From assembly GCF_030539355.1 (NCBI RefSeq), contig NZ_JAUNSF010000012.1, positions 1 to 48,347 of the forward strand: a stretch of 48,347 bases of DNA, in the 5' to 3' direction. Position numbers and translations under genes: made by a program. Under the pieces are notes generated by a model. The model was given only the letters and a program-made list of their open reading frames with translations. It was not told the DNA's origin and did no database searches. Below are positions 43,842 through 47,309 of this stretch, piece by piece (the first letter of the stretch is position 1; each line of letters opens with the position of its first letter). This stretch comes from Sutterella sp. GTDB lineage: Bacteria > Pseudomonadota > Gammaproteobacteria > Burkholderiales > Burkholderiaceae_F.

Positions 43842-43864
43842 TTCCCCCGTCGATTGATCACGAC

Positions 43865-43910
43865 CACAACCTATAGTGACTCACCTGCCTGTGGGCCACT
43901 ATAGGTTGTT
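43865..43910 (+). promoter_or_regulatory. paired NrdR boxes upstream of nrdD
   Basis: CACAACCTATAGTG (43865-43878) matches 12 of 14 positions of the NrdR core CACWATATWTWGTG; CACTATAGGTTGTT (43897-43910) matches 11. Their starts are 32 bp apart, three helical turns, the arrangement NrdR uses. The two also form an inverted repeat (CAACCTATAGTG/CACTATAGGTTG) followed by a T-rich run, so an RNA hairpin is an alternative reading. Confidence 0.55.
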
Positions 43911-43951
43911 GTTTTCTTAATTGTTGATTTCTTTAGGTAAACGAGCTCGAG

Positions 43952-45994
43952 ATGACCAGCGCACTCCCCCAGCACCTCCTGAAGCGTGACGGTTCCGTCC
44001 GTTATTTTGATGTCGAGAAGATCGTGAAGGCCGTGGCCAAGGCCGGCCGCGCCACGAAGGAGTTCGACGAGGACGCCGCGCGCGCCATCGTCACCGACCA
44101 CGTTCTTCCGCGTCTCGCCCATCACGACGCCGCCCGCACGCCGAGCATCGAGTGGGTGCAGGACGCCGTCGAGCACGCGCTCTTCGAGACGGGCCATTTC
44201 ACGACGCTGCGCGCCTACATCGTCTACCGCGAGTCGCGCGCCAAGGTGCGTGACGCGAAGAAGAGCTGGGTGAACGTCGAGAGCTCGATCAACGAGTACC
44301 TCGACCAGCTCGACTGGCGCGTGAACGCCAACGCCAACCAGGGCTACTCCTTGGGCGGCCTCATCCTCAACGTCTCGGGCAAGGTCGTCGCCAACTACTG
44401 GCTCAACTACATCTACCCGGCCGAGGTGGGCCGCGCCCACCGCGAGGCCGACGTGCACGTGCACGACCTCGACATGCTCTCGGGCTACTGCGCCGGCTGG
44501 TCGCTGCGCACGCTCCTCCAGGAGGGTCTGAACGGTGTGGCCGGCAAGGTCGAGGCCGATGCCCCGAAGCATCTCTCGTCCGCCACGGGCCAGATCGTCA
44601 ACTTCCTCGGCACGATGCAGAACGAGTGGGCCGGCGCCCAGGCGTTCTCGTCGTTCGACACCTATCTCGCCCCCTTCATCCGCAAGGACAACCTCCCCTA
44701 CACCGAGGTTCTCCAGTGCATGCAGGAGCTCATCTACAACCTCAACGTGCCCTCGCGCTGGGGCACGCAGACCCCGTTCACGAACCTCACGTTCGACTGG
44801 ACCTGCCCCGAGGACCTGAAGAAGGAGCACCCGCTCATCGGCGGCGAGACCATGCCCTTCACCTACGGCGAACTCCAGGCCGAGATGGACATGATCAACC
44901 GCGCCTACATCGAGGTCATGATGAAGGGCGACGCGAAGGGCCGTGTGTTCACGTTCCCGATCCCGACCTACAACATCACCCCGGACTTCGACTGGGAGAG
45001 CCCCAACGCGCTGAAGCTCTTCGACATGACCGCCCGCTACGGTCTGCCGTACTTCCAGAACTTCATCAATTCGGAGCTCAAGCCCAACATGATCCGCTCG
45101 ATGTGCTGCCGCCTGCAGCTCGACCTGCGCGAGCTCCTGAAGCGCGGCAACGGCCTCTTCGGCTCCGCGGAGCAGACGGGCTCGCTCGGCGTCGTCACGA
45201 TCAACTGCGCGCGCCTCGGCTTTCTCTTCAAGCACGACAAGGAGCATCTCTACGAGCGCCTTGACTACCTCCTTGAGCTCGCCAAGACCAGCCTCGAGAT
45301 CAAGCGCAAGGTGATCCAGCGTCACATCGACCAGGGTCTCTTCCCGTACACCAAGCGCTACCTCGGCACGCTGCGCAACCACTTCTCGACGATCGGCGTC
45401 AACGGCATCAACGAGATGATCCGCAACTTCACCGACGACGCGGAGAACATCACGACGGACGCCGGCCACGCCTTCGCGCTCGAGTTCCTCGACCATGTGC
45501 GCGCCCGCCTCGTGGAGTTCCAGGAGGAGACGGACCACATGTACAACCTCGAGGCCACGCCGGCCGAGGGCACGACCTACCGCTTCGCCAAGGAAGACCG
45601 CAAGCGCTTCCCGGGCATCCTGCAGGCCGGCACCCCGACGAATCCGTACTACACGAACTCCTCGCAGCTCCCGGTGAACTTCACCGACGATCCCTTCGAG
45701 GCGCTCGAGCGCCAGGACGACCTGCAGCGCAAGTACACGGGCGGCACGGTGCTCCACCTCTACATGAACGAGGCCGTCAGCTCCCCCGAGGCCTGCCGCG
45801 ATCTCGTGCGCCGCACGCTCACGAACTTCCGCCTGCCCTACATCACCATCACGCCGACCTTCTCGATCTGCCCGAAGCACGGCTATCTCTCCGGCCGTCA
45901 CGACTTCTGCCCGAAGTGCGACGCCGAGCTGATCGCCCGCAAGCGCCGTCTCGCGGCCGGTGCCGCCGGCACGCCCGCGCACGCCGCGAGCTGA
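43952..45994 (+). CDS. nrdD: anaerobic ribonucleotide reductase large chain, lacking glycyl-radical segment
   Basis: Class III reductase makes deoxyribonucleoside triphosphates without oxygen. This 680-residue chain has an N-terminal ATP cone (about 5-95) and the ten-stranded barrel with Cys180 in HDLDMLSGYC and the thiyl Cys385/386 in RSMCCRL. Near the end CPKHGYLSGRHDFCPKC (640-656) is the zinc-binding region. Normal NrdD continues directly into a glycyl-radical segment (RVxGY). Here the chain ends instead in a low-complexity Ala/Arg tail, and that segment is encoded separately at 46206. The ATG follows GAGCTCGAG; paired NrdR-like boxes lie upstream. Confidence 0.93.
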   Translation: MTSALPQHLLKRDGSVRYFDVEKIVKAVAKAGRATKEFDEDAARAIVTDHVLPRLAHHDAARTPSIEWVQDAVEHALFETGHFTTLRAYIVYRESRAKVRDAKKSWVNVESSINEYLDQLDWRVNANANQGYSLGGLILNVSGKVVANYWLNYIYPAEVGRAHREADVHVHDLDMLSGYCAGWSLRTLLQEGLNGVAGKVEADAPKHLSSATGQIVNFLGTMQNEWAGAQAFSSFDTYLAPFIRKDNLPYTEVLQCMQELIYNLNVPSRWGTQTPFTNLTFDWTCPEDLKKEHPLIGGETMPFTYGELQAEMDMINRAYIEVMMKGDAKGRVFTFPIPTYNITPDFDWESPNALKLFDMTARYGLPYFQNFINSELKPNMIRSMCCRLQLDLRELLKRGNGLFGSAEQTGSLGVVTINCARLGFLFKHDKEHLYERLDYLLELAKTSLEIKRKVIQRHIDQGLFPYTKRYLGTLRNHFSTIGVNGINEMIRNFTDDAENITTDAGHAFALEFLDHVRARLVEFQEETDHMYNLEATPAEGTTYRFAKEDRKRFPGILQAGTPTNPYYTNSSQLPVNFTDDPFEALERQDDLQRKYTGGTVLHLYMNEAVSSPEACRDLVRRTLTNFRLPYITITPTFSICPKHGYLSGRHDFCPKCDAELIARKRRLAAGAAGTPAHAAS

Positions 45995-46016
45995 TTTGGG
46001 TCGGGATCAACCGGCA

Positions 46017-46062
46017 CACCATATGTTGTGGTTTCTTTGAATCGAAACTACCACATATAGGG
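46017..46062 (+). promoter_or_regulatory. paired NrdR boxes upstream of the glycyl-radical gene
   Basis: CACCATATGTTGTG (46017-46030) matches 12 of 14 NrdR core positions; TACCACATATAGGG (46049-46062) matches 10. Their starts are 32 bp apart, exactly the offset seen before nrdD. They also form an imperfect inverted repeat with an 8-nt loop, so an RNA hairpin after nrdD is an alternative. Confidence 0.5.
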
Positions 46063-46101
46063 TTTTGAAACATTTCGACGTCCCCGTTTCCGCCTCCGGG
46101 C

Positions 46102-46178
46102 TGATATGATGGACGGACCGAAAAAACTGACAGCCGCCCCGGAAGACCGGGCTCCCGAGACCCGGAGGCAGGGGCGGC
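46102..46178 (+). promoter_or_regulatory. extended -10 promoter and leader hairpin of the glycyl-radical gene
   Basis: TGATATGAT (46102-46110) is an extended -10 nearly identical to that of nrdD. It is followed by a nested hairpin, GCCGCCCC/GGGGCGGC (46133-46178) with CCGGG/CCCGG inside, ending about 15 bp before the ribosome binding site. Confidence 0.45.
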
Positions 46179-46205
46179 GGAAAAACTATTTGAAGGAGTC
46201 TCAAA

Positions 46206-46403
46206 ATGGCTGAGAACGAAACGATTGAACTCAAGGACAACGAGCGCCAGAAGTGCGAGGTCTGGACCCGCGTGATGGGCTACCACCGTCCGGTTCAGAG
46301 CTTCAACATCGGCAAGAAGGGCGAGTTCCAGGAGCGTGTCTGCTTCACCGAGCAGCGCGCCGACGCCCACGGTGAGATCGCCCGCCCCTGCTGCGGCCGC
46401 TGA
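46206..46403 (+). CDS. stand-alone glycyl-radical domain of class III ribonucleotide reductase
   Basis: This 65-residue protein matches the extreme C terminus of NrdD: CEVWTRVMGYHRPV, then FNIGKKGEFQER. Gly25 in RVMGY is the expected radical-bearing glycine. In other class III enzymes this segment is fused to the large chain directly after the zinc region, where the upstream nrdD stops. AAGGAG lies 8 bp before the ATG. The tail ends in PCCGR, adding two cysteines not part of the usual motif. It presumably docks into NrdD and is activated by NrdG encoded 37 bp downstream. Function in trans is inferred. Confidence 0.85.
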   Translation: MAENETIELKDNERQKCEVWTRVMGYHRPVQSFNIGKKGEFQERVCFTEQRADAHGEIARPCCGR

Positions 46404-46440
46404 TCGAATCCTTCGTCGACAGAGAAACCTTGATATAGAG

Positions 46441-47247
46441 ATGACCGACATGGATGCCGCAGCGGCACGAGGGGTCATTCCGCTCGAACCCGCGGCACCG
46501 TCGGAACACTCTGATGTGATCCCGGCCTCGCGGCTTCGCGTTGCCGGGATCACGCCTTTCACGACCATCGATTTTCCGGGGAAGCTTTCCGCGGTCGCGT
46601 TCCTCCAGGGCTGCCCCTGGCGGTGCGTGTACTGCCAGAACCCCTGGATGCAGCCCACCGAGTTCGACCCGGCGCTCGAGCACGACTCGTGGGAGAAGCT
46701 CGAGGCGCTCCTCAGGAAAAGGAAGGGGCTCCTCGACGGCGTCGTCTTCTCCGGGGGCGAGCCCTGCGCGGATCCGGCGCTCAAAGCCGCCGTCGCCGCC
46801 GTGAAGGCGATGGGCTACGCCGTGGGGCTGCACACGGGAGGCATCATCCCGAAGCGCCTCGCCGAGGTGCTCCCGATGCTCGACTGGGTCGGGCTCGATG
46901 TGAAGGCGCCCCCGACGGACGCCGCGCTCTACGACCGCGTCACGGGCCGCGCGCACTCGGCCGCGCATTTTCTCGAAAGCTTCCGCATGATCCGTGAGAG
47001 CGGCGTCGCGCTCGAGTGCCGCACGACGGCCCATCCGGACTATCTCCCGGACGGGAAGCTCCTTGAACTCGCGGAATGGCTCCACGCCGAGGGCGTCGAT
47101 ACCTTCGCGCTCCAGATCTACCGCAAGCCCAACGGCGGCCTCTTCTCGGCCTTCCCGGCGGTGGGCTCGGACTATCCGGCCCCGGAGACGAAGGCGCGCC
47201 TTGAGGCGCTCTTCCCGAAGTTCATCGAACGGCGCAACGACCGCTGA
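46441..47247 (+). CDS. nrdG: anaerobic ribonucleotide reductase activase, radical SAM
   Basis: NrdG is a radical S-adenosylmethionine enzyme that generates the glycyl radical. The 268-residue protein has the [4Fe-4S] ligands Cys58, Cys62 and Cys65 in GCPWRCVYCQNP and the SAM-binding FSGGEPCADP. It belongs to the class with GITPFTTIDFPGKLS before the cluster. The frame opens at 46336 inside the upstream gene, but the ATG at 46441 is the first after its stop. It follows the glycyl-radical gene by 37 bp and is probably co-transcribed with it. A bidirectional terminator follows. Confidence 0.92.
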   Translation: MTDMDAAAARGVIPLEPAAPSEHSDVIPASRLRVAGITPFTTIDFPGKLSAVAFLQGCPWRCVYCQNPWMQPTEFDPALEHDSWEKLEALLRKRKGLLDGVVFSGGEPCADPALKAAVAAVKAMGYAVGLHTGGIIPKRLAEVLPMLDWVGLDVKAPPTDAALYDRVTGRAHSAAHFLESFRMIRESGVALECRTTAHPDYLPDGKLLELAEWLHAEGVDTFALQIYRKPNGGLFSAFPAVGSDYPAPETKARLEALFPKFIERRNDR

Positions 47248-47269: not shown

Positions 47270-47309
47270 ACAGCCTGCTTTCCATCATGGGAAGGCAGGC
47301 TGTCTTCAT
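47270..47309 (+). terminator. bidirectional terminator between nrdG and hup
   Basis: ACAGCCTGC pairs with GCAGGCTGT and an inner TTCC/GGGAA extends the stem. Rightward it is followed by CTTCATATTC and leftward by TTCAGTTTC. It separates the converging nrdG and HU genes. Confidence 0.75.

Follow-up and report, generated by a model that had tools for sequence, protein, structure and literature searches.

A predicted two-chain class III ribonucleotide reductase in Sutterella, and phage genes that encode its glycyl radical domain alone

Introduction

The glycyl radical domain of class III ribonucleotide reductases is described as the C-terminus of the catalytic chain itself (PMC9669993). Small stand-alone glycyl radical domains are known from pyruvate formate-lyase, for which YfiD (GrcA) of E. 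coli and the phage-borne Y06I of phage T4 are the only validated spare parts, with spare parts for other enzymes having been speculated upon (PMC8683613). Here a locus is analysed, at 43952..47247 of a stretch of 48,347 nucleotides from Sutterella sp. (assembly GCF_030539355.1, contig NZ_JAUNSF010000012.1; the whole stretch is called the window), in which a gene for a protein of 65 residues lies between nrdD, encoding the catalytic chain, and nrdG, encoding its activase.

It is very likely that these genes encode a split class III enzyme, in which the small protein docks into NrdD and is radicalised by NrdG on Gly25, and that phages supply fresh copies of the small protein to the host NrdD. 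In the accessible text of the open-licence literature (including PMC9669993, PMC11226230, PMC4390871, PMC3653736, PMC9531940, PMC3019208, PMC8683613 and PMC4493059), neither class III enzymes whose radical chain is separate nor phages with that chain alone were found described; subscription papers may hold such a description. As far as was found, the small protein has been annotated (RefSeq names it nrdD) yet has gone unremarked.

The nrdD locus

The nrdD gene (43952..45994, + strand) encodes a truncated class III catalytic chain of 680 residues without a glycyl radical domain. It matches the NRDD profile PF13597 at positions 2-538 of 562 (E 3e-176) and the ATP-cone profile PF03477 (E 2.9e-16), and its closest family profile is NF006126 (E 0). 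Cys385 and Cys386, which are presumed from the sequence to be the radical-accepting cysteines, lie in an MCCR motif (45104..45109, +). The chain stops just past a zinc-type motif, CPKHGY...CPKC, that begins at residue 640 (45869..45919, +), and the RVxGY motif is absent from the 680 residues.

After a gap of 211 bp, and in a different reading frame, comes the gene for the 65-residue protein (46206..46403, +), preceded by a putative ribosome-binding site of its own, AAGGAG (46193..46198, +). The small protein matches PF13597 at positions 530-562 of 562 (E 2e-8, over the curated cut-off and far above chance) and also TIGR02487 at 549-579 of 581. Coverage of the NRDD profile by the two chains is complementary, with a slight overlap, and RVMGY with its presumed radical glycine, Gly25 (codon at 46278..46280, +), therefore sits in a protein of its own. 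The third gene, nrdG (46441..47247, +), encodes a radical SAM activase of the NrdG2 type (TIGR02495, E 1.8e-53, above the cut-off) with 268 residues counted from an ATG; its frame also allows a longer reading from a GTG.

By its NRDD barrel and its NrdG the locus would be classed as a class III (anaerobic) ribonucleotide reductase, and the RVxGY motif expected in the same chain is found outside it. The initial annotation, made from the letters of the sequence, had proposed this anatomy: an NrdD that ends after the zinc region without RVxGY, a separate gene that encodes the missing segment with Gly25 and its own AAGGAG, and nrdG behind it. This observation is confirmed, and every coordinate checked was correct.

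Conservation of the split

Adjacent and complementary pieces are also what would be seen if a single nrdD had recently been broken in two by a frameshift, a sequencing error or decay. The distribution of the pieces argues otherwise. Among 61 genomes (the window genome and 60 relatives), a separate radical gene was found in 29 of the 29 with a truncated NrdD and in 0 of the 32 others; it stands directly behind nrdD in 26 of the 29. Of 160 evenly sampled Pseudomonadota genomes, 16 held NrdD, six of them truncated and ten full-length, and 144 had neither NrdD nor a radical gene. A separate radical gene lay behind nrdD in all six truncated cases and occurred in 0 of the 154 others, and two separate open reading frames (ORFs) were confirmed in all five truncated loci beyond the window's own.

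A named genome collection yielded at least 571 relatives of the radical protein, of which the best 80 loci were kept: 59 have separate ORFs near NrdD, 17 have the radical domain in one open frame with NrdD and four have no NrdD nearby. The 17 consist of 15 loci from Actinobacteria, the alphaproteobacterial L156 and L180 from Massilia; both L141 and L180 are counted among these 17. In natural single-chain relatives the radical domain is found at the same, C-terminal, end, and the split arrangement is seen in many families and some other phyla. Two single-chain loci deserve mention in their own right. The NrdD of an alphaproteobacterial metagenome-assembled genome, SZUA-601 (L156:3-1679), ends in a tandem pair of glycyl radical domains, which looks as though a spare had become part of the chain, and the conjugative plasmid pACRY03 of Acidiphilium cryptum (L271:1746-3629) carries a fused form of the same enzyme type that overlaps nrdG.

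Over 71 rows pairing NrdD with a radical gene (three loci being held twice: L029/L045, L026/L046 and L027/L130), the gap ranges from -4 to 298 bp with a median of 39, and the relative frames are distributed 20/23/28, without bias. The pieces are thus in the same frame in 20 of the 71 rows, as a broken gene would allow, and in the draft Massilia genome (L180) nrdD is indeed broken into several frames, the last piece running into the radical gene. The same arrangement across many families and some other phyla is not expected of recent breakage, however, nor are the even spread of frames, a small gene with its own start, ribosome-binding site and NrdR-like boxes, and a radical gene that lies away from nrdD in three relatives. 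On an NrdD tree of 86 rows the split and fused states require three changes, against 15.9 when the labels are shuffled, and at least two are forced by starred branches; the tree was quick, left out the radical domain, has SH-aLRT support only and contains several long branches.

Frameshift or decay was rejected on conservation, unbiased frames, the tree and the confirmed separate ORFs, its probability being close to nil. A genuine two-gene class III enzyme is instead strongly supported as the prediction, because truncated NrdD and separate gene co-occur strictly, because frames are unbiased over the 71 rows, because natural single-chain relatives have the domain at the same end, and because Cupriavidus necator H16 (below) has the same arrangement. 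The opinion of the initial annotation that the split is no simple frameshift is therefore upheld, and conservation of the split in relatives, left there as a matter for database searches, is established by the 61-genome survey, the Pseudomonadota sample and the best 80 of at least 571 loci.

Radical genes in prophages and viral genomes

The window genome has a second stand-alone radical gene, on contig C127, which encodes 72 residues and lies inside a prophage with a tail sheath. It overlaps the end of a holin gene and the start of an endolysin gene (the starts being a reading); behind it lie genes for an Rz-like spanin and an integrase. Extra copies occur in comparable lysis regions of three relatives (L040, L042 and L043; the gene labels are a reading) and on the chromosomes of two (L036 and L037), with extra or unlinked copies at L036-L039. 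The RVMGY columns are invariant across the 14 prophage and host proteins of alignment A1, all of which match phrog_4132, a family of unknown function. Separately, plasmid pALVIN01 of Allochromatium vinosum carries a stand-alone radical gene annotated nrdD (L272:3489-3698) beside a gene for a CHAP-domain protein; neither an NrdD barrel nor NrdG is annotated for about 3.5 kb around it.

Two scans of IMG/VR, the first giving the best 80 of 135 relatives and the second 59 loci, together yielded 135 loci on 101 contigs by name. An NrdD barrel was present in the fetched stretch of only two: at L269 it belongs to a single long chain that has an insertion, and at L261 the enzyme is split. When 72 of the 101 records were searched whole (E up to 0.01), 71 held the radical domain only and L261 held both parts. 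As a control, tails of the E. coli-type NrdD were sought in IMG/VR. Among the best 80 of 94, at least 300 residues lay upstream in the same ORF in 74; five of the others were shorter and one was without the motif. Since E. coli-type tails belong to full-length proteins in 74 of 80 cases, carriage of the tail only is special to the split-enzyme type. The same-type full-length NrdD at L269:886-3747 is one ORF of 964 codons, whose matched parts are separated by about 1.1 kb that may encode an intein.

These viral genes are under purifying selection. Their pN/pS is 0.12 in the 98 pairs that are at least 85% identical and 0.22 and 0.29 in more distant pairs, which are near synonymous saturation; rows had to hold Gly-Tyr to be counted. 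Gly-Tyr is present in all 74 phage rows, as the row filter required, and five loci outside the filter keep it too. The underlying conservation table is biased, since part of the motif was already contained in the search patterns and Gly-Tyr was a condition of the filter. Nearest-neighbour counts over about 33 columns, which were not used for claims of origin, were 55 same and 19 different for phage sequences and 93 same and 9 different for host sequences.

The radical gene could be read by pattern in 66 of the first 80 viral loci, giving 52 distinct cores. Endolysins, terminases, integrases and portal and tail proteins are among the neighbours, and the 125 neighbours scanned of 160 listed include one each of ThyX, uracil-DNA glycosylase and DNA polymerase A. 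On one viral contig the gene behind the phage radical gene (L126:6113-6694) resembles a ThyX-type thymidylate synthase, Thy1 being among the neighbours. On another a single ORF of 160 residues (L113:5656-6138) has the radical domain behind a DUF4031 domain; matches to this fusion protein covered the DUF4031 part (among the matches listed, 30 of 299). An annotated phage collection of 50,697 records gave three weak matches to the prophage protein and ten to a second glycyl radical domain query, the best two of which were an ANMV-1 protein and a full-length NrdD. When viral sequences were scanned with the ANMV-1 protein, 0 relatives were returned; the tail of one full-length NrdD from Sutterella returned 1.

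IMG/VR contigs are predictions, and extra or unlinked chromosomal copies exist (L036-L039), so the viral contigs could be wrongly called host fragments and the phage copies simply host genes. That is very improbable. The neighbours are phage genes, the prophage of the window genome is unambiguous, and 71 of 72 whole records lack an NrdD barrel, whereas host copies lie near a barrel in 59 of the 63 unfused genome loci. The phage copies are host-type metabolic genes inside phage genomes, as expected of auxiliary metabolic genes; as such they would be expressed in infection and would raise the activity of the host enzyme.

That phages carry just the radical part suggests that a host enzyme can accept, and be refreshed by, the product of a small viral gene. 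Put more broadly, the radical cofactor may be a portable cassette: phages of split-enzyme hosts would carry a gene of about 50-75 residues and no reductase, the product would be charged by the host NrdG, and it would restore or take over DNA-precursor synthesis in infection, for example after cleavage by oxygen. The chances of this wider proposal are judged to be evenly balanced.

Conflicting observations and rival readings

Several observations weigh against a split enzyme whose radical part is supplied by phages. The radical gene does not adjoin nrdD in three of the 29 truncated-NrdD genomes, being on another contig in G012 and G025 and beside nrdG, about 9.5 kb from nrdD, in G044. The NrdD of one congener (G002:C1:649094-650689) has an in-frame TAA inside its barrel match, by error or decay. 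A full-length NrdD is additionally present in all 11 congeners searched, and that of G003 (L273:2697-5480, 720 residues) is canonical, of the RVCGYLG type and with its own NrdG. The IMG/VR records are of unknown host and many may be fragments; one viral radical gene of the 72 (G269:C1:35150-35248, in the L264 record) has an in-frame TGA, through decay or a reassigned stop. An endolysin lies within 2.5 kb in 10 of the 52 distinct viral loci, and a lysis region is not where genes for deoxynucleotide (dNTP) supply are expected. This lysis-gene placement in some phages is the main difficulty for the supply reading.

The congeners raise the possibility that the 65-residue protein is merely a spare part of the YfiD kind (PMC8683613) and that another, full-length NrdD does the work. 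A second NrdD is at hand in 11 of 11 congeners, with its own NrdG in G003. The small protein nevertheless appears to be obligatory rather than spare in the host, because the adjoining NrdD has no radical domain of its own. Moreover, 12 of the 29 truncated-NrdD genomes, the window genome included, show no full-length NrdD. The full-length NrdD tail of G005 resembles that of G003, and this second NrdD is of another type (RVCGYLG), whose C-terminus the 65-residue protein does not match. No second or full-length NrdD was found in the window assembly (3.24 Mb, 203 contigs, 96% complete), where the locus NrdD is the sole barrel. The spare-part explanation is thus judged to have very little probability.

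A second full-length NrdD had been named in the initial annotation as one of the findings that would overturn it; the window assembly has none and the 11 congeners all have one. As its absence is from a 96% complete draft and the congeners carry it, the genus may have class III enzymes other than the split one. The genus is Sutterella: over 4,243 bases, the locus of one congener (G008) does not differ from that of S. wadsworthensis DSM 14016.

For the phage copies the main rival is a moron-type or inhibitory role: the split enzyme would be real, and the phage proteins would inhibit or decoy the host NrdD or NrdG, or belong to moron genes tied to lysis. The holin-endolysin-spanin placement in the window genome and the endolysins near 10 of 52 distinct viral loci are what this role predicts. 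A decoy would not need an intact glycine, however, and the radical motif is kept (subject to the row filter, with five loci outside it in agreement); the genes are under purifying selection; and ThyX, uracil-DNA glycosylase and DNA polymerase A occur once each among 125 neighbours. An inhibitory or moron-type role is accordingly regarded as rather unlikely, though well ahead of the spare-part and host-fragment explanations.

Evidence of function in Cupriavidus necator H16

The megaplasmid pHG1 of C. necator H16 carries the same three genes: an NrdD of 676 residues (computed mass 76,191 Da), a gene for 66 residues (H16_RS32675) and nrdG. In the work of Siedow et al. on C. necator NrdDG, published in 1999, NrdD is reported to be of 76.2 kDa. 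RefSeq gives the name nrdD to the 66-residue gene as well. NrdDG of H16, with its genes on pHG1, is reported to be essential for complete denitrification, in a paper that cites Siedow et al. 1999; the genes it names for C. metallidurans are Rmet_5137 and Rmet_5139, with one locus number left between them (PMC2864759). Since pHG1 has the same three genes and NrdDG is reported as essential, the split enzyme appears to work in a cell.

Fold and proposed mechanism

The nrdD and radical gene of a Nitrosomonadales locus (L182) were modelled with AlphaFold2 as one chain, the TAG between them being read as Gln and 50 rows added. The tethered model has a mean pLDDT of 83.6 and a pTM of 0.78, and places the radical glycine (residue 714 in its own count) at a turn between strands 707-712 and 715-718. 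The first 36 Foldseek matches to it are class III reductases (TMt 0.61-0.76). This predicted fold is consistent with docking of the small protein into NrdD. A search of solved structures with the glycyl radical domain profile alone gave no match.

The window NrdD carries IRSMCCRLQ and GLFG, that is, MCCR and, as judged by eye against section 11 of PMC4493059, a Phe at the finger-loop position. The same section gives the MCCR motif for group NrdDh4 of subclass NrdDh, a subclass that includes members using a protein reductant. Assigned by these motifs alone, the window NrdD fits group NrdDh4.

A mechanism can be proposed on this basis. The 65-residue protein would fold as the missing C-terminal hairpin and dock into the NrdD barrel at the place of the fused domain. 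NrdG would then use S-adenosylmethionine (SAM) to place a radical on Gly25, from which it would be relayed to one cysteine of the Cys385-Cys386 pair, starting nucleotide reduction. Docking and NrdG-driven radicalisation are what the locus most naturally suggests. Being detachable, the radical part could be supplied from elsewhere, by phages: many of these, the prophage of the window genome included, most likely use it to assemble or renew active NrdD of the host as a source of dNTPs. The part supplied would be the one that oxygen destroys or that limits activity.

Control elements around the locus

The whole 48-kb window was scanned with a consensus for pairs of NrdR-like boxes 30-33 bp apart. 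The best pair scored 24 and lies in the 211-bp gap (46016..46063; 16-mers at 46016 and 46048); the second best scored 23 and lies upstream of nrdD (43864..43911; 16-mers at 43864 and 43896). The best pairs in each of 20 block-shuffled windows scored 18-21. NrdR is encoded in the window genome, as is a ribonucleotide reductase large subunit of class I type (the class being a reading of the match). In G033 a pair scoring 23, scored there without shuffles, directly precedes the extra radical gene on the chromosome (L036); the prophage copy (L035) has no such pair, its best score being 16. From these boxes, NrdR probably represses both nrdD and the unit formed by the small gene and nrdG.

The NrdR-box-like pair and the AAGGAG site are in line with the statement in the initial annotation that the gap holds control elements. 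The stretch from nrdD to nrdG yielded no terminator-like hairpin. Behind nrdG, a candidate intrinsic terminator with a 14-pair stem (47270..47303, +) matches the consensus only. The one Rfam match to a regulatory RNA in the 211-bp gap was sub-threshold (E 0.74). A GC-rich hairpin at 46100-46215 of the window, immediately ahead of the small gene's ribosome-binding site, has an energy that is ordinary against shuffles (z -1.26).

Significance

The two-chain form is widespread, which changes how class III enzymes should be annotated and purified: an NrdD produced by itself is predicted to have no activity, and the radical half of a split enzyme is lost to length filters, one example being the 400-residue cut of PMC9531940. 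The split enzyme would also be a clean system for studying exchange of a radical domain after oxygen damage, with C. necator H16 as a tractable host. Judging from the phage copies, a single gene of very small size may be enough for a virus to control a large enzyme of its host. The copies also carry the spare-part idea beyond pyruvate formate-lyase, the only validated case (PMC8683613), into DNA-precursor synthesis.

Comparison with known systems

The closest described system is the class III NrdD/NrdG of the Thermotoga maritima type (NrdDh4 by MCCR and Phe). The window locus shares with it the barrel, the ATP-cone, the adjoining NrdG, the double cysteine and the zinc-type motif; it differs in having the radical domain as a separate protein of 65 residues.

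The radical of class II ribonucleotide reductases comes from cobalamin. The split class II enzyme NrdJa/NrdJb of Pseudomonas aeruginosa is, like that of the window, a ribonucleotide reductase in two chains (PMC9669993, PMC4520616), but its small chain is no glycyl radical domain.

Phage T4 and its relatives carry a full-length NrdD (PMC3653736) and so have in common with the phages described here the supply of class III function. The latter carry the radical part only, in 71 of 72 records, and would need the barrel of the host. The archaeal virus ANMV-1 has a protein of 144 residues (AJP62049.1, L210:2680-3114) that, as here, is a short viral protein ending in a glycyl radical motif; it has in addition a zinc-ribbon-like stretch in front of the radical domain. 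This protein is annotated as an anaerobic ribonucleoside triphosphate reductase, and was taken by its authors for an oxygen-sensitive ribonucleotide reductase (PMC4372165), yet it consists of the zinc-ribbon-like stretch and the radical domain only.

The parallel with YfiD/GrcA that was drawn in the initial annotation is apt in its logic, though not in the status of a spare. YfiD, Y06I and the window protein are all small stand-alone glycyl radical domains that act, or in the present case would act, in trans. The Pfam matches of the 65-residue protein were NRDD and one sub-threshold match, the radical domain of pyruvate formate-lyase not being among them. The partner of YfiD/GrcA has a radical domain of its own to be replaced and the adjoining NrdD has none. 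The window protein thus differs from YfiD and Y06I in belonging to the NRDD family and not to pyruvate formate-lyase, in being obligatory for the host enzyme, and in having as its partner an enzyme of DNA-precursor synthesis.

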